From: Actinokineospora enzanensis DSM 44649
GTDB taxonomy: Bacteria > Actinomycetota > Actinomycetes > Mycobacteriales > Pseudonocardiaceae
Length of the DNA: 64,000 nucleotides
Assembly (NCBI RefSeq): GCF_000374445.1
Contig: NZ_KB894403.1
Location: forward strand, 272,435-336,434
Direction: 5' to 3'
Numbering within the stretch: position 1 is the stretch's first letter; each line of letters starts with the position of its first letter. Positions 5,496 through 40,745 of this stretch are shown one piece after another. A program made the position numbers and the translations under genes. The notes under the pieces are model-generated. The model did no database searches. It was not told the DNA's origin and worked only from the letters and a program-made list of their open reading frames with translations.

Positions 5496-5744
5496 CCTGT
5501 GGACAACTTCTCCCGCGTTGCCCCGTCTTCCGGAAGAGTAGAACTCGGGGGATCCCCAGGCGGTTGTCCACAGTACGGTCAACCATCCACAGCCCTGGGT
5601 CGCTCCTTGACACGTCCGCCTGTCGAACCCGGCACCCCGACCTGTCCCTGTGGATGGATTCCTCCACCGCGCCGCTCTCCCTGGAAGAATGGAAATCGGG
5701 GGGATCCCGGGCGGTTGTCCACAGGCTGTCGAACGATCCACAGG
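5496..5744 (+). repeat. Repeat cluster A: two composite units with DnaA-box-like 9-mers
   Basis: The gap 5284-5802 has no convincing gene. It holds two copies of a unit of about 97 bp, at 5496-5593 and 5648-5744. Each unit has a reverse box (TGTGGACAA at 5498-5506; TGTGGATGG at 5649-5657), then CCGGAAGA-type sequence and a GGGGGATCCC core, then a forward TTGTCCACA (5564-5572; 5715-5723), and 10-11 bases further a weaker box (accATCCACA near 5583-5591; CGATCCACA at 5734-5742). A TTGACA segment (5608-5613) lies between the units. The whole stretch matches cluster B (40141-40388) in inverted orientation. Confidence 0.85.
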
Positions 5745-5802
5745 CGCGGGTACGTCCTTGACCGAACGCCGGGAGCGGACGGGTCGGCGAGACCGGGCAG
5801 GG

Positions 5803-6558
5803 CTATCCCCTGTCGTGACGTCCCAGCACGATCGTGGCCTCCCGGTCAGCGCACCGTTGCAGGCGGGCGGTGAGACCGGCGGTCTCGAAGATCGACAGCG
5901 ACTCGGGTGACTGTTCGACGCTGGTCTCCACCAGCAGGTGGCCGCCCGGGGCCAGCCAGTCCGGTGCCTCGGCGGCGACCCGGCGTTGGAAGTCGAGGCC
6001 GTCGGGGCCGCCGTCGAGGGCGGAGTGGGGTTCGTGGGCGCGGGCCTCGGGGGGCATCATCGCGATCCGGTCGGTCGGGACGTAGGGGACGTTCGACACG
6101 AGCACGTCCACCCGCCCTCGCAACGACGGCGGGAGTGCCGCGTACAGGTCTCCTTGGTGGACGTGACCGTCGGGCAGGTTGCGGCGCGCGCACGCCACCG
6201 CCGCGGGTTCGATGTCGGCGGCGTGGACCTCCACGTCGATCTCGGCCGCGATGGAAGCGCCGACCGCCCCGCAGCCGCAGCACAGATCCACCACGATCTG
6301 CCCCGGCCGCGTCAGCGCGATGGCCTGTTCGGCGAGGAACTCGGTCCGGCGCCGCGGGACGAAGACACCGGGTGCGACCGCCATCCGGGCGCCCCGGAAC
6401 TCCGCCCAACCGAGCAGGTGCTCCAGCGGGATGCCCTCGACGCGCCGCGCGACCAACACGTCCAGCTCCGCCGACGTGGTCGCCGCGTCGGTCAGCAACC
6501 GCGCCTCATCCTCGGCGAACACACATCCCGCGGCACGCAGCCGGGCAATCACATCCAC
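5803..6558 (-). CDS. PrmC/HemK-like protein N5-glutamine methyltransferase
   Basis: 251 residues. The SAM-binding motif I is DLCCGCGAVG (91-100) and the catalytic tetrad is NVPY (156-159), the N-P-P-Y-type signature of glutamine N5-methyltransferases with Val in place of the first Pro. The N-terminal helices carry GIPLEHLLGWAEF (42-54), as in PrmC release-factor methyltransferases. The divergence and the lack of neighbouring prfA suggest a paralog of the housekeeping enzyme. Substrate assignment (release factor or other) is inferred from the family only. It is divergent from the sirtuin gene at 6706. Confidence 0.82.
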   Translation of the reverse strand: MDVIARLRAAGCVFAEDEARLLTDAATTSAELDVLVARRVEGIPLEHLLGWAEFRGARMAVAPGVFVPRRRTEFLAEQAIALTRPGQIVVDLCCGCGAVGASIAAEIDVEVHAADIEPAAVACARRNLPDGHVHQGDLYAALPPSLRGRVDVLVSNVPYVPTDRIAMMPPEARAHEPHSALDGGPDGLDFQRRVAAEAPDWLAPGGHLLVETSVEQSPESLSIFETAGLTARLQRCADREATIVLGRHDRG

Positions 6559-6705
6559 GCTGTCCCATCCTCCCGGGTAGAGCCTCGCACAGCCACAAGA
6601 TCGACAATCGCCCGCTCCGGCGACACGACCCCAACAACGCCTGCCACCTCACCGACCCCAGCGAGAGTGCCGGGTACGGCGAGGCGCGCACGTAGACTCG
6701 GCGGC

Positions 6706-7581
6706 ATGCGGACCCGGCCGACCCTCTCCTGGACGGCCACCACCGCCCCCCTGCCACGCACGACCAGCCTCGACGAGGTGGTCCCCGTCCTGGCCGGGGG
6801 CGGGGTGGTGGTGCTCAGCGGCGCGGGCCTGTCCACCGAGTCCGGCATCCCCGACTACCGCGGCACCGACGGCAGCCTGCGCAGGCACACCCCCATGACC
6901 TACGACGAGTTCGTCGGCACCCCCGACGCCCGCCGCCGGTACTGGGCGCGCAGCCACGTCGGCTGGCGCACGATCGCTCGCGCGCGGCCCAATGCCGGGC
7001 ACCGGGCCGTGACCGCCCTGCACGAGGCCGGGCTGTTGGCGGGTGTCATCACCCAGAACGTCGACGGCCTGCACACCACAGCCGGGACACCCGCCGTCGT
7101 GGAGCTGCACGGCAGTCTCGACCGCGTGATCTGCCTGGGCTGCCGCACCACCAGCGCCCGCGAGGAGCTCGACCGACGGCTGCGCGCGGCCAACCCCGAC
7201 TTCGGCGCCGTCACCGGCCGGATCAACCCCGACGGCGACGTCGACCTGCCCGAGGACGCGGTCGGCTCCTTCCACCTCGTCGACTGCGCCGCCTGCCCGG
7301 CGGGGACGCTCAAACCCGATGTCGTGTTCTTCGGCGAGAACGTGCCCCGCGACCGGGTCGATCACTGCAACGACCTGGTCGACGCCGCGGCCGCGCTGCT
7401 CGTCCTCGGTTCCTCGCTGACGGTCATGTCCGGCCTGCGGTTCGTGCGCCGTGCCGCCGCAGCGGGCATCCCGGTGCACATCATCAACCGCGGCCGCACC
7501 CGCGGGGACGAGCACGCCGCCGTGCGGGTGGACCTGCCGCTGGGGCGGGCGCTGGCCGAGCTGGTCGACCGCGTCGCCTGA
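6706..7581 (+). CDS. Sirtuin, NAD-dependent protein deacylase
   Basis: 291 residues. Visible motifs: GAGLSTESGIPDYRG (39-53), TQNVDGLH (116-123), catalytic His135 in ELHGS, and two Cys pairs, CLGC (143-146) and CAAC further on, that bind the structural zinc. It removes acyl groups from lysine using NAD. The typical TQNID is TQNVD here, a conservative change. The ATG at 6706 lies seven bases after TAGACT (6693-6698) without a ribosome site, consistent with leaderless expression. Neighbours give no hint of a target. Confidence 0.9.
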   Translation: MRTRPTLSWTATTAPLPRTTSLDEVVPVLAGGGVVVLSGAGLSTESGIPDYRGTDGSLRRHTPMTYDEFVGTPDARRRYWARSHVGWRTIARARPNAGHRAVTALHEAGLLAGVITQNVDGLHTTAGTPAVVELHGSLDRVICLGCRTTSAREELDRRLRAANPDFGAVTGRINPDGDVDLPEDAVGSFHLVDCAACPAGTLKPDVVFFGENVPRDRVDHCNDLVDAAAALLVLGSSLTVMSGLRFVRRAAAAGIPVHIINRGRTRGDEHAAVRVDLPLGRALAELVDRVA

Positions 7582-7669
7582 CCGTCCCGAGTGGACGGAT
7601 GATCCACCTTGTGGGACAACGGATCCGCGTGAGTACCGTGGTCGAGGGGATCCACACAGGGAGGTCAGG

Positions 7670-8599
7670 GTGTCAAACACACATCGGGCGGTGCGGTTCG
7701 CGGAGTACGGCGGGCCGGAGGTGCTGGGCGTCGAGGAGGTGACCTCGCCCGACCCGGGGCCGGGCGAGGTGCTCGTGCGCGTGCACGCCGCCGGGATCAA
7801 CCCGATCGACTGGAAGCTGCGCGAGGGGCTGGTGCGGTCGATCCTGCCGGTCGAGCTGCCCGCCGTGCCCGGCGCCGACATCGCGGGCGTGGTGGTCGCC
7901 GTCGGGGCGGATGTGACCGGGTTCGCCGCCGGTGACGAGGTGTTCGGGTCCATCGGCACCGGCGGCTACGCCGAGCTCGCGATCGCCCGTGCCGACCAGC
8001 TCGCGGTCAAGCCCGCCGGGCTGGCCTGGGATACCGCGGCCGCGATGCCGGTCGTGGTCAACACCGCCTACGCCGTGCTGGCCGAGCTCGACGTCCGCGC
8101 CGGGCAGACGCTGCTCGTCGACGGCGCGGCCGGCGGTGTCGGCGCGGTCGCGGTGCAGCTGGCCCGGCACCTCGGGGCCCGGGTGATCGGCACCGCGGGC
8201 GAGCGCAACCACGACTACCTGCGCGGTCTCGGCGCCGAACCGACCACCTACGGCGACGGCCTGGTCGACCGGGTCCGCGCGCTCGCGCCCGACGGCGTGG
8301 ACGCGGCGTTCGACACCGCCGGGCAGGGCTCGGTGCCCGCGCTCATCGAGCTGACCGGGAAACCGGACCGGGTGGCCACCATCGCCGACTTCACCGCGGG
8401 CGGGCTCGGCGCGCGCGTGGTGTCCGCGGCGGGCCCGGAGCTGCCCGACCGGCTGGCCAAGGCCGCCGCGCTGGTGCTCGACGGAACCCTGGCGATCACC
8501 GTGGCGCGGGTGTTCCCGCTCGCCGAGGCGGCCGCCGCGCAGGAGGAGAGCCGGGGCGGGCACGTGCGCGGGAAACTGGTGCTGTCGATCACCGGATAA
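7670..8599 (+). CDS. NADP-dependent quinone/zinc-type alcohol oxidoreductase (MDR family)
   Basis: 309 residues. The GroES-like N-terminal part carries AAGINPIDWKLREG and PGADIAGVVVAVG, followed by a Rossmann domain with DGAAGGVGAVAVQLA. The zinc-ligand residues of true alcohol dehydrogenases are absent, so it belongs with zinc-independent quinone or enone reductases. GTG at 7670 follows GGGAGGTC. It is monocistronic, with its own gap of about 90 bp from the sirtuin gene. The physiological substrate is unknown. Confidence 0.85.
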   Translation: MSNTHRAVRFAEYGGPEVLGVEEVTSPDPGPGEVLVRVHAAGINPIDWKLREGLVRSILPVELPAVPGADIAGVVVAVGADVTGFAAGDEVFGSIGTGGYAELAIARADQLAVKPAGLAWDTAAAMPVVVNTAYAVLAELDVRAGQTLLVDGAAGGVGAVAVQLARHLGARVIGTAGERNHDYLRGLGAEPTTYGDGLVDRVRALAPDGVDAAFDTAGQGSVPALIELTGKPDRVATIADFTAGGLGARVVSAAGPELPDRLAKAAALVLDGTLAITVARVFPLAEAAAAQEESRGGHVRGKLVLSITG

Positions 8600-8770
8600 G
8601 CCGCCCGAAACGGGTCTGTCCGACGGTCGATGGCACGCCCCCTGATCCGACAAGATGACCGGGAGGGCTATTCATACAGGTCACCGATCACGTCGGTAGA
8701 ACTCGATCGTTGCGATGGTCCGGACGGCGACCCTCCGCCCGCTTGTGACCTGCGCCACCCTTCGGAGATG

Positions 8771-8799
8771 TTGTCGACAATCGACAATCGACCTACGGT
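8771..8799 (+). promoter_or_regulatory. Promoter with overlapping palindrome, candidate GntR operator
   Basis: TTGTCG (8771-8776), 17 bases, then TACGGT (8794-8799), ahead of the gene at 8825. The -35 lies in a perfect palindrome TTGTCGACAA (8771-8780), and TCGACAATCGAC repeats follow directly. FadR-type GntR proteins bind short palindromes of this kind; the GntR gene is the last gene of the operon starting here (14315). Confidence 0.6.
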
Positions 8800-8824
8800 G
8801 GGCGCAGCGAGCGGAGGAGAACGG

Positions 8825-9946
8825 ATGGACGGGCTTCGGGTTGCGGTGATCGGGGCCGGGCGGTGGGCGCAGTGGGCTCACCTGCCCGGCTGGGCGCGGG
8901 ACGACCGGGTCGAGGTGGTGGCGCTGGTCGACACCGACCCGCGGGTGCTCGGCGAGGTGGCGGAGCGGTTCGGGGTGCGGCGGACCTCGACCGACTATCG
9001 GGAGGTGGTGGACGATCCCTCGGTCGACGTCGTCGACGTCGCCACGGCCAACTCCGCGCACTACGAGGTGGCCGCGGCGGCGATCGAGGCGGGGAAGCAC
9101 GTGTTGTGCGAGAAGCCGGTGCACCGGGACTTCCGACGGACACGGGCGCTCGCCGAGGCGGCCAAGACCCGGGGGCTCAAGACGAAACTCGGGTTCACCT
9201 TCCGGTACGCCCCCGCGGTGCGGTACGCGAAGAGCCTCATCGACGCCGGGTTCATCGGCACGCCGTACGTGTTCAACGGCTTCGAGCAGAACAGCCAGTG
9301 GATCGACCCGGCCACGCCGATGCGGCAGGTCGATCCCGACGCCGACCCCACCGTGATCGCCACCTCGTCCATCGAGGGCTACGGGGCGCCGATCATCGAC
9401 ATCATGCACTGGTGGGCGGGTGGGCGGCTGACCTCCGTCGTCGGGACGATGCGCAACTTCGTGCCAGAGCGGGTGGTCTGGGCCACGGGGCGCAGGCAGC
9501 GGCTCAACATCGACGACGGCGACATGTGGATCTGCGAGTTCGACAACGATCTGATCGCGTCCATCCAGTCCTCCTACGTCACGGTCGGCAACCTGCCCGG
9601 GATCGAGGCCCGCGTCTACGGCTCCGAGGGTGCGCTGATCGTGCGACTGGTGGCGGAGTCCGGTGTCTGCCAGACGATCCGCACGGCCACCAAGGACGCC
9701 GCCGAGTTCGTCGAGCGGGAGATCCCGGCCGAGTTCTTCCCCCCGGGCGGCGCGTCCACGGAGGACTGGGGTGCCCTGTTCTACGCCAACCTCTGCGCCG
9801 ACTTCGCCACCGAGGTCCTCGACGGCGGCGACACCAACCAGGGCGACTTCGAGCAGGGCGCGCTGGTGCAGGAGACGATCAACGCGTTCGAGGCGTCGTT
9901 CCACCGCCGCGCCTGGGTGGACTTCCCGCTCGGGGACGCGGCGTGA
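8825..9946 (+). CDS. Gfo/Idh/MocA-family oxidoreductase
   Basis: 373 residues. The N-terminal NAD(P)-binding fold opens with VAVIGAGRWAQWAHLPG and reaches VATANSAHYEVAAAAIEAGKHVLCEKP, the hallmark EKP region with its catalytic-area lysine. The C-terminal sheet domain contains GAPIIDIMHWW, with Asp and His in the places used in dehydrogenases acting on sugars and cyclitols. The start has a GGAGGAGA site. It is the first gene of a six-gene operon; its GTGA junction overlaps the TldD-like gene. It probably oxidises or reduces a hydroxylated intermediate of the pathway. Confidence 0.87.
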   Translation: MDGLRVAVIGAGRWAQWAHLPGWARDDRVEVVALVDTDPRVLGEVAERFGVRRTSTDYREVVDDPSVDVVDVATANSAHYEVAAAAIEAGKHVLCEKPVHRDFRRTRALAEAAKTRGLKTKLGFTFRYAPAVRYAKSLIDAGFIGTPYVFNGFEQNSQWIDPATPMRQVDPDADPTVIATSSIEGYGAPIIDIMHWWAGGRLTSVVGTMRNFVPERVVWATGRRQRLNIDDGDMWICEFDNDLIASIQSSYVTVGNLPGIEARVYGSEGALIVRLVAESGVCQTIRTATKDAAEFVEREIPAEFFPPGGASTEDWGALFYANLCADFATEVLDGGDTNQGDFEQGALVQETINAFEASFHRRAWVDFPLGDAA

Positions 9947-11409
9947 GCCCGCACGGGTGGGGTGCGCTGGCCGACGACGCCACCGCCGCGGCGCTGGTGG
10001 AGGCGGCGTTGGACGCGGTCGACGGTCGGGTCGAGCACGCCGACGTGCGGCTGGTCGAGGCCGAGGAGCTGCGGGTGTACCGCAGGCTCGGCGCGGACGT
10101 GGACGAGCGCGTCGAGCACACCCTCGGCATCGGCGTCCGCGTGCTGGTCGACGGTGTCTGGGGATTCGCCGCGTGCCCGTTGGCCGACAGCGCGGAGGCC
10201 GTCACCGCGGCGCGCCGGGCGTACGCACTGGCCGTGGCGGCGCGGGGCACGTCGAAACCGGTGCGGCTGCCGGAGCTGGAGGTCCACAGCGGACGGTACG
10301 AGACGGCCGTCGAGCAGGACCCGTTCACCGTCGCCGAGCACGCTCGTCAGGCGCTGCTGAGCGAGGCGCTGGACGCGGCGTGCGTGCCGCGGGACGTGGT
10401 GTCCGCGCAGGTGGGGGTCAACGCCAAGCGCCAGCACCGGCACTTCGGCAACTCGGCCGGGTCGCGGCAGCACCAGCACTTCCTGGAGACCGGTGTGCTG
10501 GTACTGGTGCTGGCCGCCGGGCACGGCGACGTGCAGCGGCGCAGCTACCCCAACTCCTTCCACGGCGACACGGCCGCGGCAGGCTGGGAGTTCGTGCTCG
10601 GGCGCGACCTCGTCGCCAACGCGGCGCGGGTGGGCGAGGAGGCGGTGGCGCTGCTGACCGCGCCGGTCGCGCCCTCCGGCACCGCCGACGTGGTGCTCGG
10701 CGGGCAGCAGATGTCGCTGCAGATCCACGAGTCCGCCGGGCACGCCCTGGAACTGGACCGGATCCTCGGCGACGAGGTCAACTTCGCAGGCACCTCGTTC
10801 ATCGGCGTCGACGACGTCGGCTCCCTGCGCTACGGCTCCCCCGCCGTCACCATCACCAGCGACCCGACCGTCCCGGGCACCCGAGGCAGCTTCGCGTTCG
10901 ACGACGAAGGCACGCCCGCCTGCCGCCGCACCCTGGTGGACGGGGGAATCGTGCGCGACACACTCTCCACCCTGGACTCCTCGGCGCGCGCGGGCCTGCC
11001 GCTCACCGGCGCCGCGCGCTCCGACGGCTGGGGCTACACCCCGGTGTGCTTCGCCACGCACGTCTACCTCGAACCCGGAACCGGCACGCTCGACGAACTG
11101 TGCGACCGCCTGGGTGAGGGCTTCTACGCCGAGGACAACCGGTCGTGGTCCATCGACGAGCGCCGGTGGGACTTCCAGTTCGGCACCGAGGTGGCCTACG
11201 AGGTGCGCGGCGGCAAACGCGGCAGGCTGCTGAAGAACTTCTCCTACGGCGGGACCACCCCGCGGTTCTGGGGCTCGGTCGAGGCGGTCGCCGACGACCT
11301 GCGGATCTTCGGCTACCCGTGCGGCAAGGGCGAGCCCAAGCAGTGGGGTTTCCTCAGCCACGGCGCGCCGTCCACATTGGTGCGTGGTGTGCGGATCGGG
11401 GTGGCGTGA
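9943..11409 (+). CDS. TldD-like metallopeptidase subunit
   Basis: 488 residues. The zinc site motif HESAGHALE (His262, Glu263, His267) and the C-terminal CGKGEPKQ with its conserved Cys match TldD, the catalytic subunit of the TldD/TldE protease, which degrades unfolded or modified peptides inside a closed barrel. It overlaps the preceding gene by GTGA and the following TldE-like gene by one base, so the two subunits are co-translated as expected for the heterodimer. Its place beside a peptide-type importer and deacylase suggests a nutritional peptidase rather than the housekeeping one. Confidence 0.88.
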   Translation: MSPHGWGALADDATAAALVEAALDAVDGRVEHADVRLVEAEELRVYRRLGADVDERVEHTLGIGVRVLVDGVWGFAACPLADSAEAVTAARRAYALAVAARGTSKPVRLPELEVHSGRYETAVEQDPFTVAEHARQALLSEALDAACVPRDVVSAQVGVNAKRQHRHFGNSAGSRQHQHFLETGVLVLVLAAGHGDVQRRSYPNSFHGDTAAAGWEFVLGRDLVANAARVGEEAVALLTAPVAPSGTADVVLGGQQMSLQIHESAGHALELDRILGDEVNFAGTSFIGVDDVGSLRYGSPAVTITSDPTVPGTRGSFAFDDEGTPACRRTLVDGGIVRDTLSTLDSSARAGLPLTGAARSDGWGYTPVCFATHVYLEPGTGTLDELCDRLGEGFYAEDNRSWSIDERRWDFQFGTEVAYEVRGGKRGRLLKNFSYGGTTPRFWGSVEAVADDLRIFGYPCGKGEPKQWGFLSHGAPSTLVRGVRIGVA

Positions 11410-12731
11410 TGGGCTTCGCCGCTCCTGTCGAGCCCGCCCGCGCCACCGAGTTGCTCGCCGCGGCCGTGCGCGGGGCCGCCGCCGACCACGTCGAGGCCGC
11501 GCTGCTGGCGCGGGCCGGGGAGTACACCAGGTTCGCCGTTGAGCGGGTACACCAGCCGCAGGACATCACCGAGCAGCAGGTCGTGGTGCGCGCCGTGGTC
11601 AACGGGCACGCCGCGCGAGTCGCCACCAGCGCGCTCGACCGCGTGCCCGACGCGGTCCGCCGGGCGACCGCGATCGCCCGCGACCTCGACCACGCGGCGC
11701 CCGGCCCCGGCTCGGCGTGGACGCCCGAGAACGCCACCAATGACGATCACCTGCTCTGGCACGACGACACCGCCGCCTTCGACGCGTCCGAGCGGGTGAC
11801 GATCGCCGCACACGCCATGGCGGAGGCGCGCCGGGTGGGCGCCACCGCGGCGGGCATGGTCGGCCGGGCCGTGACCCAGCTCGCCGTCGCCGCGAGCACC
11901 GGCGCGCTGCGGCACGTGGTGGCGACCGAGGCCACCGGCAGTCTCACGGTCGGCGACGGGGACGGCTCCGCGCACTGGGCGAACCTGCACCGGTCCCGCA
12001 CCGAGCTGGGTCTGACCCCGGCGACGGTGGCGGACGTGGTGGCCCGTGCCGTGCGCACCCGCGGCCGGAAGCCACTGCCCGACGGCGTCTACACCGTCGT
12101 GCTGGGTCCCGAGGCCACCGGGGAGCTGCTCGGGTTCCTTGGCGTGCTCGGTTTCGACGGCGGTCTGGCCGAGGCGGGTGTCGGCGTGGCCACCGGGCCG
12201 GGGCGGCGGGTGGCCGCCGAGCCGGTCACGGTGGCCGACGACGCGTCGCACCCGTTCGGGCTGCCCATCCCGTTCGACGTGTCGGGCACGTCCAAGGCCG
12301 TGGTGCCGCTGCTGACCGCCGGACTGGTCGGTGCCGCGGTCGACGACCGGACCGGCCATGCCCACGTGGCGCGGGAGTCGCTGCCCGCCCCGGTCGCGGC
12401 GAACGTCGTGATGGCGCCCGGCCCGGACGACGACCTGGTCGCGGGCGTGGCGGACGGGCTCTACGTCGAGCGGTTCTGGTACACCCGGCTGGTCGACCGG
12501 CGGACGAGCACGATCACCGGCGTCAGCCGGGACGCGTGCTTCCGGATCGTGGACGGCGAGCAGACCGAGCCCGTGCGGGGTGCTCGGTTCACCCAGTCCG
12601 TGTTCGACCTGTTGTCCACAGTAGATGGTGTGGGGGCCGAGCTGCGGGCGCAGCCGATCATGAACGTGTGGAACGGGTCGGTCACCGCGCCCGCGATCCG
12701 CGCGCACGGCTTCCGGTTCGGTCCACGGTGA
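11409..12731 (+). CDS. TldE/PmbA-like non-catalytic partner subunit
   Basis: 440 residues with PmbA-type features: an N-terminal alpha/beta region with QQVVVRAVVNGHAARVAT, a GVYTVVLGPEATGELLGFLG segment and a C-terminal barrel half. The HExxxH zinc motif of its partner is missing, as in TldE/PmbA. ATG at 11409 shares its A with the TGA stop of the TldD-like gene. The two proteins should form a TldD-TldE heterodimer. A single TTGTCCACA occurs inside the gene (12612-12620) and is probably incidental. Confidence 0.85.
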   Translation: MGFAAPVEPARATELLAAAVRGAAADHVEAALLARAGEYTRFAVERVHQPQDITEQQVVVRAVVNGHAARVATSALDRVPDAVRRATAIARDLDHAAPGPGSAWTPENATNDDHLLWHDDTAAFDASERVTIAAHAMAEARRVGATAAGMVGRAVTQLAVAASTGALRHVVATEATGSLTVGDGDGSAHWANLHRSRTELGLTPATVADVVARAVRTRGRKPLPDGVYTVVLGPEATGELLGFLGVLGFDGGLAEAGVGVATGPGRRVAAEPVTVADDASHPFGLPIPFDVSGTSKAVVPLLTAGLVGAAVDDRTGHAHVARESLPAPVAANVVMAPGPDDDLVAGVADGLYVERFWYTRLVDRRTSTITGVSRDACFRIVDGEQTEPVRGARFTQSVFDLLSTVDGVGAELRAQPIMNVWNGSVTAPAIRAHGFRFGPR

Positions 12732-15008: not shown

Positions 15009-15178
15009 ACTAGTGGTGCGACTCAGAACGTCGACCGCGTCTCGACCCGCCCACGACGCGCCTGACGGCACCGCCGGAAACGACCAAGTACATCCAGTAC
15101 GAGGCCGTCCCGGCGGCACCGCCAGCCACGCCGTGGACCCGCCGATACACGGCCGACGTTCTGAGTCGCACCACTAGT
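15009..15178. mobile_element. 170-bp palindromic MITE-like element with 25-bp perfect terminal inverted repeats
   Basis: The ends 15009-15033 and 15154-15178 are exact reverse complements, beginning ACTAGTGGTGCGACTCAG. The interior continues as an imperfect inverted repeat around about 15094, so the whole element can fold into one long hairpin. It encodes no protein and sits between convergent operons. Its right end supplies the stop codon of the dehydrogenase gene (15174-15176). The outer ACTAGT/CTAG may include a target duplication. Confidence 0.75.
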
Positions 15179-24285: not shown

Positions 24286-24295
24286 GAGAGCCAGG

Positions 24296-25033
24296 ATGAT
24301 CGACCCCACCGGCCGGTTCGCCATCGTGGCAGGCAACGCCGAGGACATCGGCCACGCCGTCGCCCGCGAGCTGGCCGCCGCGGGCATGACCGTTGCGGTG
24401 CTGTGCGACCAGGCCAACGCCGTGCGCGCGCTGGCCGAGGAAGTGCCGTCCGTGCACGCGTTCGTCACCGACTTCACCGACGCCGACGTGCTGCGCGCCG
24501 CCGCCGAGGATGCGGTGCGGCGGTTCGGCACGCCACGGCTGGTCGTGCACAACTCGGCGGTGTTCCGCGAGGTCCCCGTGCTGGAACTCGGCGTCGCGGC
24601 GTTCAAGGCCGAGTCCGACGCCATTCTGCAGAGCGCGTTCGTGCTCGCCAAGGCCGTCTGGCCGCACATGGTCGAGGCGCGCGACGGCAGCATCGCGTTC
24701 GTCTCGTCGGGCTCGGCGCTGTCCGGGTTCGCGAACGAGGCCGCATACGTCGCGGGCAAGCACGGGCAGGAGGGGCTGATGAAGGTGCTCGCCCTGGAAG
24801 GCAAGGAGCACAACGTCGCCGCCAACACCATCACCACCGGCGCGCCGATCGACGGTCCGCTCGCGTACACCTACACCGATGCCATGCGCGCGGTGATGGT
24901 GCCGCCATCGCGGCTGGCGCCCGCGTTCGCGTTCCTGGCGGGCATCGACGCGGACTTCGCCACCGGCCAGCGGTTCAACGCCTTCCAGCTCTCCGAGGCC
25001 ATCCGAGTCACCCGGGAAGGGGTGTCCGCGTGA
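24296..25033 (+). CDS. Short-chain dehydrogenase/reductase, copy 1
   Basis: 245 residues. Catalytic Ser lies in FVSSGSALSG and the YxxxK pair in AAYVAGKHGQEGL. The N-terminal dinucleotide motif is degenerate, AGNAEDIGHAVA in place of TGxxxGIG, so coenzyme binding may be weak or altered. The Asn of HNSAVF is conserved. It has an AGGAGAG site and ends in a GTGA overlap with its paralog. The terminal ~38 residues are the same as in copy 2 at nearly identical DNA level. Confidence 0.85.
   Translation: MIDPTGRFAIVAGNAEDIGHAVARELAAAGMTVAVLCDQANAVRALAEEVPSVHAFVTDFTDADVLRAAAEDAVRRFGTPRLVVHNSAVFREVPVLELGVAAFKAESDAILQSAFVLAKAVWPHMVEARDGSIAFVSSGSALSGFANEAAYVAGKHGQEGLMKVLALEGKEHNVAANTITTGAPIDGPLAYTYTDAMRAVMVPPSRLAPAFAFLAGIDADFATGQRFNAFQLSEAIRVTREGVSA
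24899..25014 (+). repeat. Gene-conversion tract, copy 1
   Basis: These 116 bp in the first SDR gene match 25648-25763 in the second with four mismatches by eye, although the rest of the two genes is much less alike. Confidence 0.9.
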
Positions 25034-25770
25034 TCGACATCAACGGCAAGGTGGCGTTCCTGACCGGCGCCGCCGAGGGGCTGGGCCGCGAGATCGCCCG
25101 TGAGCTGGTAGCGGGCGGCATGCGGGTGGCGATGATGGACGTGCAGGAGGCGAAGCTGACCGCGCTCGCCGACGAGCTGCGGTCGACCGGCGCGGACGTC
25201 CTGCCGATCACCGTGGACATGGCCGACCCGGTGGCCACCGCGGCCGCGGTCGAGACGGCGTTGGCGCACTACGGGACGCCTCGGGTGCTGATCCACAACG
25301 CCGCCGTGCTCAAGGAGGTGTCCATGGTGGACGTCACCTTCGACGACTGGCGGCGCGAGGTGGACATCATCCTCGGCGCGGCCTACGTGCTGACGAAAAC
25401 CGTGTGGCCGCACATGGTCCGGGCGCGGGACGGCAGCATCGTGTTCCTGTCGTCGGGGTCGGCGCTGTTCGGCTTCGTCAAGGAAACCGCGTACACGCCC
25501 GGCAAGCACGCGCAAGAAGGACTGATGAAGGTGTTGTCCTTGGAAGGCAAGGAACACAACATCGCGGTCAACACGACGTCCACCGGCCGTCCTATTGATA
25601 CGCCGATGTCGGACTCCCACTACACGGAGGAAATGCGGATCGGCATCGTGCCGCCATCGCGGCTGGCGCCCGCGTTCGCGTTCCTGGCGGGCATCGACGC
25701 GGACTTCGCCACCGGACAGCGGTTCAACGCCTTCCAGCTCTCCGAGGCGATCCGGGTGACCCGCGGATGA
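25030..25770 (+). CDS. Short-chain dehydrogenase/reductase, copy 2
   Basis: 246 residues. The Rossmann motif TGAAEGLGREIA is canonical here, with the acidic residue after MMDV favouring NAD. Catalytic Ser is in FLSSGSALFG and the Tyr/Lys pair in TAYTPGKHAQEGL. It is a paralog of the previous SDR and overlaps it by GTGA, so the two may form a heterodimer or act on successive hydroxyls. RidA is overlapped by ATGA at its end. Substrate unknown. Confidence 0.87.
   Translation: MIDINGKVAFLTGAAEGLGREIARELVAGGMRVAMMDVQEAKLTALADELRSTGADVLPITVDMADPVATAAAVETALAHYGTPRVLIHNAAVLKEVSMVDVTFDDWRREVDIILGAAYVLTKTVWPHMVRARDGSIVFLSSGSALFGFVKETAYTPGKHAQEGLMKVLSLEGKEHNIAVNTTSTGRPIDTPMSDSHYTEEMRIGIVPPSRLAPAFAFLAGIDADFATGQRFNAFQLSEAIRVTRG
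25648..25763 (+). repeat. Gene-conversion tract, copy 2
   Basis: Partner of 24899-25014: the same 116 bp at the 3' end of the second SDR gene. Confidence 0.9.
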
Positions 25771-32109: not shown

Positions 32110-32543
32110 GACTTGTATTCGGGGTGCAACGACAGCGCGATGAACTGGAACGGCCGGTCCACGCTCTGGTAGCCGAGCGGGCAGTGCGGCACCCCCGCCG
32201 GGATGTAGACCGAGGCGCTGGTGGAGATCTCGTAGACCTCGCCGTCGATGGTCAGCTCCGCCACCGCGCCCAGGTCGTTGATGTCGTCGGGGTTGGAGCC
32301 CATCCAGAGCAGCACCTCGTCGTAGTCGTGGGTGTGCTCCAGCACGTACGGGTTGGGGGTGGGGACCTGGTAGATCCAGCTGTAGGCGATGTGGACCTTG
32401 CAGCCCTCCACCTGCCAGCCGCTGACGAGCGCGTGCGCGCCGCTGGTACCGCCCTCGATCTCGCCGTAGGCCAGCACACCCTCGTTGGGGAGCTCCTCGC
32501 GGACCATGTGCCGGACGATGTTCTTCTCGTACTTCCCTGCCAT
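32106..32543 (-). CDS. Cupin-domain protein
   Basis: 145 residues with a cupin core: LEHTHDYDEVLLWMG (His/Asp/Glu metal-ligand motif 1) and SVYIPAGVPHCPLG (motif 2). It probably binds a metal and a small ligand. Start ATG at 32543 has an AAGGAGA site. It lies 64 bp after the AraC regulator gene and overlaps the HTH-only gene; together the two small products add up to one AraC-like regulator. Confidence 0.72.
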   Translation of the reverse strand: MAGKYEKNIVRHMVREELPNEGVLAYGEIEGGTSGAHALVSGWQVEGCKVHIAYSWIYQVPTPNPYVLEHTHDYDEVLLWMGSNPDDINDLGAVAELTIDGEVYEISTSASVYIPAGVPHCPLGYQSVDRPFQFIALSLHPEYKS

Positions 32544-32607
32544 GACTGGGGTTCTCCTTCGCTTCGGGCCTGTTCCGAAGGTACGAACCCGGCCTCGGGG
32601 CAGACAG

Positions 32608-33480: not shown

Positions 33481-33496
33481 GAACGCCTCCCCGCTC

Positions 33497-34411
33497 CTAT
33501 CCCTTCGCCGTGGCCAGGTTCAGGCCAGGCTCCGGGATCGACTTGAGTCCATAGTGGCCGATGACCCGGTCCAGTGTGCCGTCCGCCTTGAGCGCCTTCA
33601 ACGCCGCGAGCAGCGCATCGGCCAGCTGCTGGTCGTCCTTGCGCAGGTACATGCCCACGTAGCTGAGGCCGAAGTCGTCGGAGACGATCACGATCGGGGC
33701 GTGCTGGGCCTCGATCGCGTACTTGGCCTGCTCGGTCACCGCGACCTGGAAGTCGGCCTGCCCGGAGCGCAGCGCCAGGTCCGCGTCCTGCGCGGTCGGG
33801 TACTGGCGGGCCTCCGCGGCCGGTTTGCCCTTGCCGACGCAGGCCTGCGAGATCTCCTCGGCGTGCTGCACGTCGGTGGTGCCGCGGATGGTGGCGATCC
33901 GCTTGCCGCAGGCGTCGTCGACGCTCTTGTACTTGCCCTCGTTGCTCTTGGCGGTCACCAGCACGCTGGCGGACTGCATGTAGTCGACGAAGATCCCGAC
34001 GCGTTGGCGCTCCTCGGTGTCGGACAGGCCGTCGTCGGCCATGTCGAAGCGGCCAGCGGTCACCCCGGGCAGCAGCGCCTCCCAGGCGATGTTCTCGATC
34101 TTGTAGTCCAGGCCCAGCTTCGCCGCCACGGCGCGGCCGACCTCCGGGGTGATACCGCCGGTGATGTTGTTGCTGTCGTCGGTGAGCAGGTAGGGCAGGT
34201 TCGGCAGGGTGGTGCCCACGTGCAGCACACCCGCGTCCTTGATCCGCTGCGGGAGCATGTCGTGCAGCGCCTGGTCCTTGGCGGGCAGCGCCGAGTTCGC
34301 TGGCGCGGGCGCCGGTTGCTGCTGCGCGCCCGGGTCGCCGCAGGCGGCGAGGACGGCGGCGCAGGCCAGCACGGCGGCCATGCGGCGGCTAGGACTGCTG
34401 GTTCTGGGCAT
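33497..34411 (-). CDS. Polar amino-acid ABC transporter substrate-binding lipoprotein
   Basis: 304 residues. Lipobox VLAACG near residue 24 gives an N-terminal lipid anchor. The family-3 binding fold is visible in [33 protein letters not shown] and [16 protein letters not shown]. The periplasmic-type domain captures an amino acid or close analogue. It overlaps the ATPase gene by 23 bases and belongs to the operon of 35195-36004. Confidence 0.88.
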
Positions 34412-35198
34412 GGTCGGTCTCCTTCTCGGGGTGTCGGCGGACGTGCGCCAGGAACGCGGCGGTGCGCGCGGACGAGGGGTCGGTGAGCACGCGCTCGGCG
34501 GGGCCGGACTCGACGACCACGCCGTCGTCCATGAACACCACGGTGTCGGCCACGTCCCGGGCGAACCCGATCTCGTGGGTGACCACCACCATGGTCATGC
34601 CCTGCGCGGCCAGCCCGCGCATCACCGCGAGCACCTCGCCGACCAGCTCCGGGTCCAAGGCGCTGGTGGGCTCGTCGAACAGCATCACCGACGGCCGCAT
34701 GGCCATCGCCCGCGCGATCGCCACCCGCTGCTGCTGCCCGCCGGACAGCTGCGCGGGCAGCTTGTCCGCGTGCGCGGCCAGCCCGACCCGGTCGAGCAGC
34801 GCGCGGGCCTCGCGCTCCACCTCGGCCGGGTCGCGGCGCAGCACCTTGACCGGGCCGAGGGTGACGTTGCGCAGCGCGGTCAGGTGGCTGAACAGGTTGA
34901 ACTGCTGGAACACCATGCCCATGCGCAGCCGGGCGCGGGCGACCTCCCGCTCGGTGCTCTCGTGGAGCTTGCCCTCGCGCGGCTCGTAGCCCACCAGCAC
35001 GTCGTCGACCTGCACGAACCCGCCGTCGAGCACCTCCAGGTGGTTGACACAGCGCAGCAGGGTGCTCTTGCCGCTGCCCGACGGGCCGATCACGCACACC
35101 ACCTCGCCAGGCGCCACGTCCAGGTCGACCCCGCGCAGCACCGGCATCCCGCCGTAGGACTTGCGCAGCCCGCGCAGCCGCAGCCCGCCCGCGCTCAC
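34389..35198 (-). CDS. Polar amino-acid ABC transporter ATPase
   Basis: 269 residues. Walker [10 protein letters not shown], signature LSGGQQQR and Walker [14 protein letters not shown] mark a typical HisP/GlnQ-type importer ATPase. GTG at 35198 overlaps the permease stop by GTGA. It drives uptake through the permease at 35195. Confidence 0.93.
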
Positions 35199-36004
35199 CG
35201 CGCCGCCCACCGTTCGAGGAACCGCTGGCCCACCCCGGCGACCGTGACCAGGATCAGGTACCAGCCGGTCGCGACCAGCAGCAGCGCGATAACCTGGTAG
35301 TTCTGCCCGTAGATCTGCTGGGCGCGGGTCATCAGGTCCCCGCCGCCGATCACCGACACCAACGACGTGCCCTTCAGGATGAGGATGAACTGGTTGCCCA
35401 GCGCGGGCAGGATGACCCGGATCGACTGGGGCAGCACGATCGCGCGGGTGGCCGCGGCGCGGGTCATGCCGATGGTCAGCGCCGCGTCCACCTGCCCGCG
35501 CGGCACCGCCAGGAACCCGCCGCGGATGATCTCGGCCAGGTAGGCGGCCTCGTGCAGGCCAAGGCCGAGCATGGCGGCCAGGAACGGGGTGATCACCTCG
35601 TTGGTGGGGGCGAAGCCGAGCGTCGGGAACAGCAGCGCCAGGTTGAACCAGAACACGATCTGAACCACCAGCGGCACACCCCGGAAGAACCAGATGTAGC
35701 CCGCGGCCGCCGCGACCGCGACCGGGTTGCGCGACTGCCGCATCAACGCCAGCACCGCACCCAGCACCAGGCCGACGCCGAGCGTGGTGAAGGTCAGCAC
35801 GAGCGTGACGCCCACGCCCTCCATCACCGGGGTGGCCAGGAAGTACTTCCCGATCACCGTCCACTCCAGATTCGGGCTGACCGCCACCGTGTAGACCAGC
35901 CAGCCCAGCACGGCCACCAGCACCGCGCCCACGCCCCAGCGCGCCGCGAACCGTCGGCGCCGCACCACTTCCAGGGTGTCGAGCCCGTCCAGGGTGTCGA
36001 GCAT
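35195..36004 (-). CDS. Polar amino-acid ABC transporter permease
   Basis: 269 residues, five or more helices. The His/Glu/Gln transport-type motif is seen in [19 protein letters not shown] and [22 protein letters not shown], with [27 protein letters not shown] at 36004 has a GGGAGAGG site. It is the first gene of the importer operon and is divergent from the histidine kinase gene. Confidence 0.92.
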
Positions 36005-36067
36005 CTCCGCCTCCCCTCTCCCGGGTGCGAAGGACGGTAGGCCCGGCCGGAGCACGGAATCTTGACT

Positions 36068-36119
36068 CTGCGTGCCAACCTCCCGCCCACCCGCCCGCTG
36101 CGTGCCAACCTCCCGCCCA
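36068..36119. repeat. 22-bp direct repeat in the divergent promoter region
   Basis: CTGCGTGCCAACCTCCCGCC plus two more bases occurs at 36068-36089 and 36098-36119, a period of 30, between the importer operon and the histidine kinase gene. Spacing of three helical turns suits a protein-binding pair. Confidence 0.6.
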
Positions 36120-36220
36120 GGTCAGAGCGGTGACCGACTGTGTGCCGAGGGTGCGCGGGTGAGGGCCGTCTCGGTCGTGGGGATGAGGTTCCGGTCCGGA
36201 TCGCCCGACATACTGGGCCG

Positions 36221-37252
36221 GTGCGGATACGACCGGTGGACTGGCTGGTCACCGGGGTCGCCGTGGTCGCGACCGTGGTGCCGGTGGCGCTGACCGAGCC
36301 CCTCGCCTGGTGGGCCGTCGCGCTGGTGGTGCTGGCCTCGGCGCCGGTGCTGTGGCTGCGGCGGTGGCCGGTGCCGGTGGGTGCGCTCGTCGGGATCGCG
36401 GTGTCGGTGCTGGCGATCCTGCACCTGCCGCCGCTGGTCCCGGCCGGGCCGCTGGTGGCCGTCTACGAGATCGCCGCCAACGGCACCCGGCTGGTGCGGC
36501 TGGTGTCGGTCGCGGTCACGCTGGTCGGCACGCTCACCTCGCTGGTGCTGCCCGGCGAGCACGACACCGAGACCTACCGCTACCTGGCCGCCGCCTATGT
36601 CGCCGCCTACGCCCTGGGCACGAGCACCCGGGCTCGGCGCGCGCAGGCCGTCGTGGTCGAGGAGCGTGCTCGCGCCGCCGCGGCCGCCGAACGCGCGCGG
36701 ATCGCCCGCGAGCTGCACGACATCGTCACCCACTCGGTCGGCATGATGATCGTGCAGGCCGAGGCCGGGCCGCTGCTGGTGCGCGCCGAACCGGGCCGGG
36801 CCGAGGCGGTGTTCGACACCATCGCCGACACCGGGCGCGCGGCGGTGGTGCAGCTGCGGCAGTCGGTCGGCGCGTTGCGCTCGGCCGGGGTCGCCGACAT
36901 CCCGGCGCTGGTGGACGGGACCGGTCTGGTCGTGGACCTGGCCTGCGACGGCGCGCCGCGGCCGGTGCCGCCGGAGGTGGACGTGACCGCCTACCGGGTG
37001 GTGCAGGAGTCGTTGACCAACACCGTGCGGCACGCGGGCGCCACGGCGGTGCGGGTGCGGCTGGGCTGGACGGAGCACGCCCTGGACATCGACGTCATCG
37101 ACAACGGGCGCGGTCCGGCGGGCACCCGGCCCGGGTTCGGGCTGATCGGCATGCGGGAGCGGGTCACCGCGTGCGGCGGCACGCTGGCGACCGGGCCGGG
37201 GCCGGAGGGCGGGTTCGCGGTGCGGGCGTCGTTGCCGCTGGGGCGGCCGTGA
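36221..37252 (+). CDS. Sensor histidine kinase (HisKA_3/NarX-like, DesK-type)
   Basis: 343 residues. Four to five N-terminal membrane helices (about residues 8-135) are followed by the phosphoacceptor His166 in [13 protein letters not shown], and the C-terminal ATPase with [14 protein letters not shown] and [11 protein letters not shown] at 36221 is preceded by TACTGG without a ribosome site, so it may be leaderless. It overlaps the response-regulator gene by GTGA, a clear partner pair. Confidence 0.9.
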
Positions 37253-37902
37253 TCCGGGTGCTGGTGGCCGACGACCAGGACCTGTTCCGCGGCGGGTTCA
37301 CCATGATCCTGGCCGCGCAGCCGGACATCGAGGTGGTCGGGGAGGCCGCCGACGGGGCTGCGGCGGTGGAGGCGGCGGAGCGGCTGCGTCCGGACGTGGT
37401 GCTCATGGACGTGCGGATGCCGGTCCTGGACGGGGTGGCGGCGACCGCGCGGGTGTGCGCGCGGACCGACGCGCGGGTGATCGTGTTGACCATGTTCGAC
37501 CTCGACGAGTACGTCTATGCCGCGCTGCGCGCCGGGGCGAGTGGGTTCCTGCTCAAGGACATCCGCCGGGACGACCTGGTCGGCGCGGTCCGGCTGGTCG
37601 CGGGCGGCGAGGCGCTGTTGGCGCCGACGGTGACGCGGCGGCTGATCGGCGAGCTGCTGCGGCGCGGGCACGCGGTGCCGCGGCTGGCCGCGCGGCTCGG
37701 GGAGCTGACCGAGCGGGAGACCGCGACGCTGCGGCAGGTGGCGCGGGGGTTGTCGAACGCGGAGATCGCCGCGGAGCTGTTCGTCACCGAGCACACCGTG
37801 AAGACGCACGTGAGCAACGTGCTGGCGAAGCTGGGGCTGCGGGACCGGGCGCAGGCGGTGGTGTTCGCCTACGAAAGCGGACTGGTGGTCGCCGGGGAGT
37901 GA
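37249..37902 (+). CDS. NarL/LuxR-family response regulator
   Basis: 217 residues. The receiver has Asp9/Asp10 and phosphoacceptor Asp54 in VVLMDVRMPVLDG, plus Lys in LLKDI. The C-terminal HTH reads LTERETATLRQVARGLSNAEIA and TVKTHVSNVLAKL. It is coupled to its kinase. The target genes are not evident; the esterase gene follows 59 bp downstream. Confidence 0.93.
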   Translation: MIRVLVADDQDLFRGGFTMILAAQPDIEVVGEAADGAAAVEAAERLRPDVVLMDVRMPVLDGVAATARVCARTDARVIVLTMFDLDEYVYAALRAGASGFLLKDIRRDDLVGAVRLVAGGEALLAPTVTRRLIGELLRRGHAVPRLAARLGELTERETATLRQVARGLSNAEIAAELFVTEHTVKTHVSNVLAKLGLRDRAQAVVFAYESGLVVAGE

Positions 37903-37961
37903 GGCCGGGTTCGGTCCCGTCGGCGATGCGGTCGCGGTGGTCCGGTCGAAACCATGGGGGC

Positions 37962-39530
37962 ATGCGAAAAGCACTGGGGTTGGTGGTGGCGGTGATCGTC
38001 GCCCTGGGTGTGCCCGTCCCCGCGTCGGCGGCTCCCGGGGGTTGCGCGACGACGGTCGGTTCCGGCGCTGTTGCGGGACGTTCCGCGGGTGGCGTGTGCG
38101 TGTTCCGGGGAATCCCATACGCGGCGTCGCCGACCGGCGAGTTGCGGTTCCGGCCGCCGCAACCGGCACGGGCGTGGTCCGGGACGTTGCAGGCCGTGGA
38201 CGGCGGCGCGGTGTGTCCGCAGTTTCGGGACCGGTTGACCGAGGACTATCCGGACGACCGGCAGGTCTACCTCGACGAGGACTGTCTCCGGGTGAACGTG
38301 TGGACGCCCGCGGCCGATCGCGGTCGGCGGCCGGTGATCGTGTTCGTGCACGGCGGCGCGGCACAGTTCGGGACCGGGAACGAGCCGCGCTACGACGGCA
38401 CGAACCTCGCCGCGCGCGGTGACGCCGTGGTGGTGACGGTGAACTACCGGCTGGGCGCGTTGGGCTGGCTGGAGCTCGGCGACCTCGACCCGGCCTACCG
38501 GGGGTCGGGCAACAACGGGCTGCGTGACCAGATCGCGGCGTTGACGTGGGTGCGGCAGAACATCGCGGCGTTCGGCGGCGATCCGGACAACGTCACGGCG
38601 GTCGCGCAGTCGGAGGGGGCGTTCTGCCTCAGCGCGATCCTGGCGACCGAGCAGCCGCAGAAGCTGTTGCGGCGGGCGGTGTTGCAGAGTGGCAGCGGGT
38701 ACATGGTCCATTCGCGACGCATGCAGCAGACCGTGGACCGGCAGTTCCGGGACGCCAACGGGATCACCAGCGCCGGTCAGGTGCTGAGCATGTCCACTGT
38801 GGAGTTGTTAGCGGCGCAGGAGAAGGCGATGCCCGCGCACGCAACCGGGTTCGCTGTCTACTTCGGACCCAGGATCGACGGCGAGCTGGTGCAGGGGCCG
38901 TTGATCGACCGTGTGAACGCCGGGAACACCCGGGGAATCGACCTGCTGATCGGCACCACGCGGGACGAGGTGCGGTTCTTCACACAGATCGACCCCGGCA
39001 TGGTGGCGATGACGCAGGCGGACTACGACCCGCTCTTCCCGGCACCGCTGGCCGACCGCCGTGCTCGGATCACTCGGGCATACGGGGACGACATCCTGGC
39101 CTCGCTGACCGACCAGTTCATGCGCGTGCCCGCGACGCGGTTGGCGGCGGCGCAGAACAAGTGGGGACGCGCGTACCTGTACCGGTTCGACTGGGCGCCG
39201 GTGCCGCAGGGCGCCGTGCACACCGGTGAGCTGCCGTTCGTGTTCGGCACGCTGCGGTTCGCAGGCATCCCGGGCGGCGAGGAGGCGTTGGCGCGGGACC
39301 GGGCCCGGATGACGTCGCTGTCGAACGAGATGATGGGTTCGTGGACGTCGTTCGCGCGGCGTGGCGATCCCGGGTGGCCGCGCTATGCCGTGTTCTGGCG
39401 GTTCACCAGGATCTGGGACACCCCGTCCTGGCTGGCCATCGCCCCCGACGACACCCGCCGGGCGGTGTGGGACGCGTATCCGTTCGCCGCCCTGGACGTC
39501 GCCCCGGAGGCAACCGCCGCGCACCCGTGA
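37962..39530 (+). CDS. Secreted type-B carboxylesterase
   Basis: 522 residues. A signal peptide of about 27 residues ends ASAAPGG. The family fold shows FRGIPYAASPTGELRFRPPQPA, VYLDEDCLRVNVWTP, oxyanion FVHGGA, and a nucleophile loop AQSEGA. The usual first Gly of GxSxG is Ala here, unusual for the family, although Ser remains. The acid (GTTRDEVRF) and His region (VHTGELPFVFG) are present. It is likely an exported esterase of unknown substrate. Confidence 0.85.
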   Translation: MRKALGLVVAVIVALGVPVPASAAPGGCATTVGSGAVAGRSAGGVCVFRGIPYAASPTGELRFRPPQPARAWSGTLQAVDGGAVCPQFRDRLTEDYPDDRQVYLDEDCLRVNVWTPAADRGRRPVIVFVHGGAAQFGTGNEPRYDGTNLAARGDAVVVTVNYRLGALGWLELGDLDPAYRGSGNNGLRDQIAALTWVRQNIAAFGGDPDNVTAVAQSEGAFCLSAILATEQPQKLLRRAVLQSGSGYMVHSRRMQQTVDRQFRDANGITSAGQVLSMSTVELLAAQEKAMPAHATGFAVYFGPRIDGELVQGPLIDRVNAGNTRGIDLLIGTTRDEVRFFTQIDPGMVAMTQADYDPLFPAPLADRRARITRAYGDDILASLTDQFMRVPATRLAAAQNKWGRAYLYRFDWAPVPQGAVHTGELPFVFGTLRFAGIPGGEEALARDRARMTSLSNEMMGSWTSFARRGDPGWPRYAVFWRFTRIWDTPSWLAIAPDDTRRAVWDAYPFAALDVAPEATAAHP

Positions 39531-39724
39531 CGCGCACGGTGGCCATCGACCGTCCCGTTCGGTCCAGTCGATCTCCCCCACGGTGTCCCGCAGGCTTTTC
39601 GGGACCACCCCGGGTCACGGCCGACGTCGATAGGGTGGTCGTGGCCGGTTCCGCGTCACCGAACCGCACCCGAGACATCCCCTACCCGCAACCACCGAGT
39701 GCCCGCAGCCGAAGGGGAAGTCTC

Positions 39725-40048
39725 ATGTCACGTGCCCTGGCCACCCTCGTCACCGCCGTCACCCTCACCCTGACCGTCATCACCGGTGCCGCCACCACCG
39801 CCTCCGCCGCCCCCGCCACGACCACCACCCTCGACCGCACCCCGTCCACGCGCACCCTCGCCCTGGCCCGCCTCGTCGGCCTGCGCCCCGTCCTGGTCAC
39901 CACCATCGACCGCCACGGCCACATCCACCTGTCCATCCGCTTCGTCCCGCGCACCCAGCCCACCGCACCCGCCGACGACGAGGTCGGCCAGCTCGGCGAG
40001 GGCGACGCCCAGATGGCAGGCGACGCCGTGAGCCCCGCCTACGACTAG
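39725..40048 (+). CDS. Small secreted hypothetical protein
   Basis: 107 residues. A long Thr/Ala-rich signal peptide ends at about residue 28 (TTASAAPAT). The mature part has VLVTTIDRHGHIHLSIRFVPRT and an acidic C-terminus. ATG at 39725 has a GAAGGGGAAG site. No homologous family is recognised. It stands alone before a strong terminator. Confidence 0.65.
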   Translation: MSRALATLVTAVTLTLTVITGAATTASAAPATTTTLDRTPSTRTLALARLVGLRPVLVTTIDRHGHIHLSIRFVPRTQPTAPADDEVGQLGEGDAQMAGDAVSPAYD

Positions 40049-40060
40049 ACCCTTCCGACC

Positions 40061-40104
40061 TGTGTCCGGTGTCGACGCCCCCGTCCCCGTCGACACCGGA
40101 CACA
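40061..40104 (+). terminator. Hairpin terminator
   Basis: A 17-bp perfect stem (40061-40077 with 40088-40104) and a 10-base loop, 12 bases after the stop of the small secreted protein gene. Confidence 0.85.
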
Positions 40105-40140
40105 CCCTCGTCCGGTGCTCGGTCAAGGGAGTGGCCGGGC

Positions 40141-40745
40141 CTGTGGATCGTTCGGCAGCCTGTGGACAACCGGCTGGGGATCCCCCGAGTTCCATTATTC
40201 CGGAGGGGGCGACGCGGCGGAGGAATCTATCCACAAGGACAGCTTGGGGTACTGGGTTCGACAGGCCAGCGTGTCAAGGGGCGACCCGGGGGCGGTGGAT
40301 TGTTCGACGGTCTGTGGATAACCCTCGGGGGACCCCCGAGTCCTATTCTTCCGGACGACGGGGCCAGGCGGGATGAGTTGTCCACAGGTCAGCGGAATCC
40401 GACCCGGTCGTCTCCGCCGGTGGACCGCGATGGACGAAGGCGAGTCGAGGCGTGATCGGCGCCTGTGGACCGTTCGACCAGATTGTGGACAACCGCTCGG
40501 GACCCCCGGTTTCCATTCTGCCTGCGGGCGCGGGCCGGGTGCAGTGAGTTGTCCACGGCGGTGAGCTTGGCGGCTCGGCCCGCGCTGGTCGGATAGTGTC
40601 CATTGTGGAAGGCAGGCCGAGCTGTCACGTCCCTCGCCGCTTCTCCTGCCTGTGGACAACTTCACCCGCTCCTGCACCCACGCCGGCAGAATGGAAACCG
40701 GGGGTCCCCGAGCGGTTGTCCACAGCCCCGTCGAATCATCCACAG
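40141..40745. repeat. Repeat cluster B: four composite units with DnaA-box-like 9-mers
   Basis: The non-coding gap 40049-40878 holds four composite units: minus orientation at 40141-40237, 40293-40387 and 40462-40558, and plus orientation at 40649-40745. Strong boxes (TTGTCCACA or its complement) are at 40161-40169, 40378-40386, 40484-40492, 40651-40659 and 40716-40724; the perfect E. coli-type TTATCCACA complement is at 40313-40321. Weaker boxes are at 40142-40150, 40227-40235, 40464-40472, 40549-40557 and 40736-40744. The first two units match cluster A in inverted orientation, including the inter-unit TTGACAC segment. Nothing else was seen at 40746-40878. Confidence 0.85.

Follow-up and report, generated by a model that had tools for sequence, protein, structure and literature searches.

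The stretch of DNA analysed here (the window) comprises 64,000 nucleotides of contig NZ_KB894403.1 of Actinokineospora enzanensis DSM 44649, a member of the Pseudonocardiaceae. It holds six copies of an intergenic repeat unit carrying 9-mers of the DnaA-box type, two at 5.5 kb and four at 40.1-40.7 kb, and each of the six was found where the original prediction had put it. The element to which they belong is real and family-wide, and no description of it was found in a literature search that was surface-level and does not prove absence from print. The units of the window and the parts of its one full element are as follows.

5496-5614, forward strand: array unit 1, with a reverse box at 5498-5506, a strong box at 5564-5572, a weak box and TTGACA
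5647-5764, forward strand: array unit 2, with a degenerate reverse box (TGTGGATGG), a strong box at 5715-5723, a weak box and TTGAC
40120-40237, reverse strand: array unit 3, with a strong box at 40161-40169; inverted counterpart of unit 2
40271-40388, reverse strand: array unit 4, with boxes at 40313-40321 (TTATCCACA) and 40378-40386; inverted counterpart of unit 1
40443-40556, reverse strand: array unit 5, with boxes at 40484-40492 and 40549-40557 (TTGTCCACG)
40649-40770, forward strand: array unit 6, with boxes at 40651-40659 (reverse) and 40716-40724
40716-40744, forward strand: DnaA-box pair of the terminal full element, TTGTCCACA at 40716-40724 and TCATCCACA at 40736-40744
40763-40789, forward strand: promoter-like part, TTGACA at 40763-40768, 15 bp, TAGGCT at 40784-40789
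40796-40823, forward strand: GC-rich inverted repeat (hairpin) just past the presumed transcription start; its predicted RNA fold is no more stable than those of shuffles

Repeat units in the window and in the A. enzanensis genome

The boxes vary from unit to unit, and the weak box lies on the same strand as the strong box, 19-20 bp further on from start to start. What the original prediction missed is the continuation of the last unit, TTGACA-N15-TAGGCT followed by the GC-rich inverted repeat (40763-40823), and the fact that the unit is one of many genome-wide. Within the window TTGTCCACA occurs 17 times at up to one mismatch, against 7.4 +/- 2.5 in shuffles, a count of 17 being reached in none of 100. 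The pair of units at 5.5 kb aligns at equal length with the reverse complement of the pair at 40.1-40.4 kb, with 83% identity over 254 bases, so that the inverted match that had been claimed is borne out; the inverted-repeat arms that link the two clusters measure 193 nt at 80%.

A profile of the array unit gave 140 hits in 735 kb of the 8.1-Mb genome (87 contigs), that is in 61 stretches picked because earlier searches for boxes or units had matched there, and first-order resampling of the same DNA, done three times, yielded no hit of either of two element profiles. All except one of the 140 units fall outside genes as called by a home-made GC3 gene caller (not an annotation), and a coding origin was rejected. 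Assembly duplication was also rejected, the copies differing from each other, sitting on many contigs and being matched in all 15 congeners by the array-unit model (R1). The narrower pattern GTTGTCCACAN{4,8}GAAYCATCCACAG was abandoned, as it matched 5 of 61 genomes and 7 places in the A. enzanensis genome.

In the array unit a reverse box (CCTGTGGACAAC), which other copies replace by a forward box with GCAAGATCATC after it, is followed by about 30 variable bases, GGTAGAATGGAAATCGGGGGTCCCC, the strong box GTTGTCCACA, the weak box (GAACCATCCACAGG) and CTTGAC. Conservation comes in blocks, the columns of the boxes, TANNNT, GGGG and TTGAC mostly holding 1.3-2 bits and most spacer columns less than 0.5. 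Units less than 400 bp apart lie on the same strand in 65 of 68 cases, and TTGAC is retained in 91 of the 107 A. enzanensis units that reach that column. A further motif, AAGATC, recurs in the A. enzanensis genome and has no known reader.

The simpler element and its range in the family

Single copies in relatives have a simpler order: the strong box TTGTCCACA, the weak box CATCCACAG 19-20 bp on, TTGACA 17-18 bp past TCCACA, 15 bp, TANNNT and lastly a GC hairpin whose core resembles CCCCSGGGWGGGYGGG. The last unit of the window continues into one such full element (40716-40823). Scanning 84,980 species with a pattern that stopped at TTGACA, and so required neither TANNNT nor the hairpin, gave 41 stretches, 40 of them from Actinokineospora (A. 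diospyrosa, A. globicatena, A. inagensis and A. terrae); the pattern was narrow, matching these four species and not other congeners, and records near A. enzanensis may lie outside the collection. In all 42 Actinokineospora copies from the four species TTGACA is followed by TA at +15 and by T at +20, these T, A and T being invariant and the remaining three positions variable, and the hairpin core is present in 41 of the 42. The background rate of TANNNT in A. enzanensis non-coding DNA is 0.2%. The remaining stretch, from Mycolicibacterium, has neither TANNNT nor the hairpin downstream of its match.

Of five loci from another genus of the family (g8), three (L203, L212 and L220, around 1372-1736) have two elements arranged back to back, with boxes that are shared or adjoin each other. 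Several copies have GTTGATCWTGG after the hairpin, again without a known reader, and a semi-conserved motif like TTCGCGNNNGGCGAA was seen by eye some tens of bases past GTTGATC in L113, L119, L140 and some A. globicatena copies.

A model of the simple element (R2) matched 110 of 200 Pseudonocardiaceae genomes, in 36 of 46 genera, at E <= 0.001, the other 90 giving no match. The array-unit model R1 matched 36 of 61 relatives, including all 16 genomes of the genus, where the congener matches mostly cover the box pair and the TTGAC part. In these multi-genome searches the number of matches per genome is a lower bound, since at most 73 (R1) and 18 (R2) candidates of each genome were scored. Three complete congeners have 95, 27 and 33 R2 matches at E <= 0.01. 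One of the complete congener chromosomes carries six elements within 4 kb, three per strand (G006:C1:634155-638139). A phage or plasmid origin was set aside, as viral contigs searched with a narrow exact pattern gave no match and blastn against plasmids and phages gave none either.

The units of the window probably derive from, or share parts with, this family-wide box-box-TTGACA-N15-TANNNT-hairpin element, and in A. enzanensis amplification of its box part appears to have produced tandem arrays that include a third box.

DnaA boxes and their placement

The A. enzanensis genome contains 520 exact copies of TTRTCCACA compared with 35 of the reversed pattern, a number far in excess of chance. 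The corresponding numbers are 757 and 35 for A. diospyrosa (G015) and 353 and 26 for one genome of genus g2. Across 16 genomes of Actinokineospora the count ranges from 100 to 757, in the other 20 family members from 39 to 188 and in 24 genomes of other families from 5 to 100. The examined A. enzanensis stretches contain 257 boxes, of which 251 fall outside called genes and 208 are located at a unit.

A single copy of dnaA was found in A. enzanensis, on a different contig from the window (C19:17298), with dnaN adjoining and both identities confirmed by Pfam. The clusters are therefore not an ordinary oriC, as had been concluded from the lack of dnaA and dnaN nearby. The gap between the two genes (L010:6196-7214) holds four TTRTCCACA boxes, each preceded by G (two of GTTATCCACA and two of GTTGTCCACA), as well as weaker boxes and one same-strand box pair 20 bp apart. 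Among 250 dispersed boxes of the examined A. enzanensis DNA, position 3 is G in 80% and A in 20%, and G stands at -1 in 93%. The 9-mer that had been proposed as a DnaA box thus recurs, in the same GTTRTCCACA context, between dnaA and dnaN, which makes a strong sequence argument that the dispersed 9-mers are DnaA boxes, to which DnaA would presumably bind. As in a DnaA-titrating box cluster, several boxes of the local oriC type lie close together in non-coding DNA. The spacing of the pairs is also narrow: when redundant copies had been removed, 139 of 172 same-strand TCCACA cores within 45 bp after a GTTRTCCACA box stood at 19 or 20 bp, in loci mostly gathered because of such boxes, and inverted cores numbered 6. 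The oriC of another member of the family, Kutzneria albida, is reported to lack classic DnaA boxes (PMC4210621). The use of DnaA sites in the Pseudonocardiaceae therefore deserves a look.

The elements avoid gaps between divergent genes. Considering gaps of at least 120 bp in A. enzanensis, those with units were convergent in 35 cases, co-directional in 30 and divergent in 3, against 32, 97 and 70 for gaps without units (Fisher p 9e-8 for the avoidance of divergent gaps). Two called neighbours were available for 36 of the 43 pattern matches in the four species named above, giving 17 convergent, 18 co-directional and 1 divergent gap on a background of 31 divergent gaps in 104. The family loci gave 10 convergent, 21 co-directional and no divergent placements (n=31); 2 of 31 gaps there are divergent, too few for a test.

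Three orthologous gaps allow a comparison of copies. At L124/L147 the boxes, TTGACA, TANNNT and the hairpin are kept between flanks that can hardly be aligned, at L134/L150 the whole element is kept and at L072/L074 the box pair.

A proposed distributed DnaA reservoir and its rivals

The reading that we find likeliest, and put forward tentatively, is that the element is a dispersed DnaA-binding sequence under selection, whose copies would together act as a distributed DnaA reservoir and which includes a promoter-hairpin part of its own. It draws on what was observed, namely the number of copies and their anatomy, the fixed spacing, the placement between genes, the shortage in divergent gaps, the conservation of motifs at the three orthologous gaps and the identity of the 9-mer with the dnaA-dnaN boxes. 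DnaA would bind the strong and weak boxes as a same-orientation pair, 19-20 bp or about two helical turns apart, and the many copies, with their hundreds of boxes, would buffer free DnaA chromosome-wide, so that initiation at oriC might be delayed or buffered. The promoter-hairpin half, where present, would be a very short transcription unit, either controlled by DnaA or helping to clear bound DnaA. DnaA binding, transcription and an effect on titration or timing are what we would expect from the sequences. The titration sites considered in the original prediction agree with the identity and number of the boxes, but that proposal left out the promoter-like half.

A bolder version, which we regard as doubtful, is that of a chromosome-wide network of DnaA-controlled mini transcription units. 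The phased box pair would sense free active DnaA and the promoter with its 15-bp spacer would respond, so that buffering and local transcription at gene 3' ends would be coupled to the replication cycle; Actinokineospora would have amplified the network, several of its species reaching hundreds of boxes in a genome.

Several results weigh against the reservoir reading. The rate of positional conservation cannot be read from the orthologous pairs, because both members were chosen as holders of the element. Beside the 5.5-kb cluster lies a methyltransferase gene whose 3' side carries a unit in none of the 15 congeners, and in A. inagensis (L162) an element is found on the opposite side of that gene. 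On the chromosomes of the three complete congeners the elements lie scattered, thinning far from dnaA: 108 places (63, 20 and 25; E <= 0.001) collapsed to 96 loci, which fall into quintiles of increasing distance from dnaA as 21, 30, 19, 19 and 7 (pooled Kolmogorov-Smirnov p 0.017, no single p below 0.1). The box clusters of Bacillus subtilis and Streptomyces coelicolor, as far as their source describes them, lie near oriC, unlike the Actinokineospora copies, which are many, chromosome-wide and joined to a promoter-like and hairpin part. TANNNT stands at +15 after just 19 of the 91 TTGAC motifs of A. enzanensis and is absent from that place in 72, so that a promoter does not explain why TTGAC is retained inside the arrays. 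In the consensus fold none of 9 predicted pairs covaries (4 of the 9 lie within the hairpin), and 6 of 7 folded examples are not clearly more stable than shuffles. A promoter made up of the TTGAC of one array unit and the TANNNT of the next was rejected, the two being about 57-80 bp apart in a few examples measured by hand. In the 96 loci the elements are co-oriented with the fork in 61 (31 of 51, 15 of 20 and 15 of 25); gene orientation was not controlled, so this is given without interpretation.

A different explanation is a family of the repetitive extragenic palindrome (REP) or miniature inverted-repeat transposable element (MITE) kind, spread by duplication or by an unknown enzyme, in which the DnaA boxes of the founder matter little to the host and placement at 3' ends reflects tolerance. 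REP sequences and their mosaic elements (REP/BIME), mycobacterial interspersed repetitive units (MIRU) and other intergenic repeats are short, dispersed, often tandem and often found at gene 3' ends, and the present element shares these traits, being a dispersed multi-copy intergenic sequence mostly 3' of genes. Spread is indeed visible, and the element has versions specific to single species. In A. diospyrosa two copies at separate locations (L113/L140) are almost identical; among the A. globicatena copies, which include other types, one group has a hairpin half that hardly varies. The 254-base inverted duplication of the window, the methyltransferase 3' side without a unit in 15 congeners and the avoidance of divergent gaps would fit as well. 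However, the element differs from REP/BIME and MIRU in its family-wide range, its DnaA boxes and its motifs resembling protein sites, which are conserved block-wise over poorly conserved spacers, also between the orthologous L124 and L147. Inspection of the L113/L140 pair by eye showed neither terminal repeats nor a target duplication (transposases were not searched for), and no phage, plasmid or viral copy was found. We consider this explanation rather unlikely. The original prediction had also offered a repeat that spread carrying boxes; the spread stands, but a repeat merely carrying boxes is too weak a description, because the element is family-wide and intergenic, avoids divergent gaps and keeps its motifs at three orthologous gaps. 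Selection and spread probably both acted.

The copies could instead be tiny RNA genes or promoters under DnaA, which would bind at about -56 and -76, if transcription is taken to begin 7 nt past TANNNT, and control a promoter with a 15-bp spacer and a hairpin RNA of about 40-50 nt. The exact TTGACA-TANNNT distance in all 42 relatives' copies with its invariant T, A and T, the hairpin directly past the presumed start, the narrow 17-18 bp between box and TTGACA and the T-rich tails of some elements (for example L195) speak for such genes. A promoter pattern with a -10, as expected of a small RNA gene, is thus present in 42 of 42 relatives' copies, but in the A. enzanensis units the -10 is at its place in 19 of 91, a T-tract is not general and the stability of the hairpin is mostly at the level of shuffles. 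The absence of covariation led us to reject a conserved RNA structure. A known RNA was rejected after 3 loci at E <= 1 and 20 loci at E <= 5 had been compared with Rfam and no family had matched the element; the output consisted of a tRNA, part of an RNase P and chance matches below threshold, one of these last overlapping an element in L218. On balance we think this explanation unlikely.

It is improbable that the element consists of sites for another DNA-binding protein, or of a terminator or insulator between convergent genes, with a convergent likeness to DnaA boxes: the strong bias to gaps holding a gene 3' end, the GC hairpin and the recurring AAGATC and GTTGATCWTGG would suit it, but the 9-mer, the G/A freedom at its position 3 and its flank equal those of the A. 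enzanensis dnaA-dnaN boxes.

Returning to the reservoir reading, initiator titration has long been debated as a model of how replication is timed. In Escherichia coli, datA, DARS1 and DARS2 are single loci, and to our knowledge they contain no promoter-hairpin unit and are not dispersed. Like the present element they are non-coding, and they act on DnaA (PMC4585315), an action that for the element is proposed. In B. subtilis and S. coelicolor, DnaA-box clusters close to oriC are able to repress untimely initiation (Smulczyk-Krawczyszyn 2006, cited in PMC4585315). As these are described there, the element has in common with them DnaA boxes outside oriC. By its sequence it resembles a DnaA-box cluster; it is nevertheless not filed with the oriC-near clusters, because in the three complete congeners its copies are not confined to the vicinity of oriC. 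The element may point to a mechanism, not recognised so far, by which DnaA is held or sensed across the genome. The load of DnaA boxes differs several-fold in the genus and, in the examined A. enzanensis DNA, much of it resides in one recognisable element, so that the titration model would become testable by comparison and deletion. Moreover, the strictly spaced module of boxes, promoter and hairpin is a new anatomy to explain.

Other features of the window were noted. An inverted repeat with 69-nt arms, 81% complementary and separated by a 32-nt gap, lies at 15009-15178. At 24635-25763, two adjoining stretches (240 and 144 nt) have counterparts 746-749 bases farther downstream that match at 75% and 90%, perhaps a duplicated coding sequence. 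Selenocysteine genes occupy 51930-54369, with selA at 51930-53201 and tRNA-Sec at 53208-53299, both on the reverse strand, and on the forward strand at 53335-54369 a gene with AIR-synthase-related domains, taken as selD.

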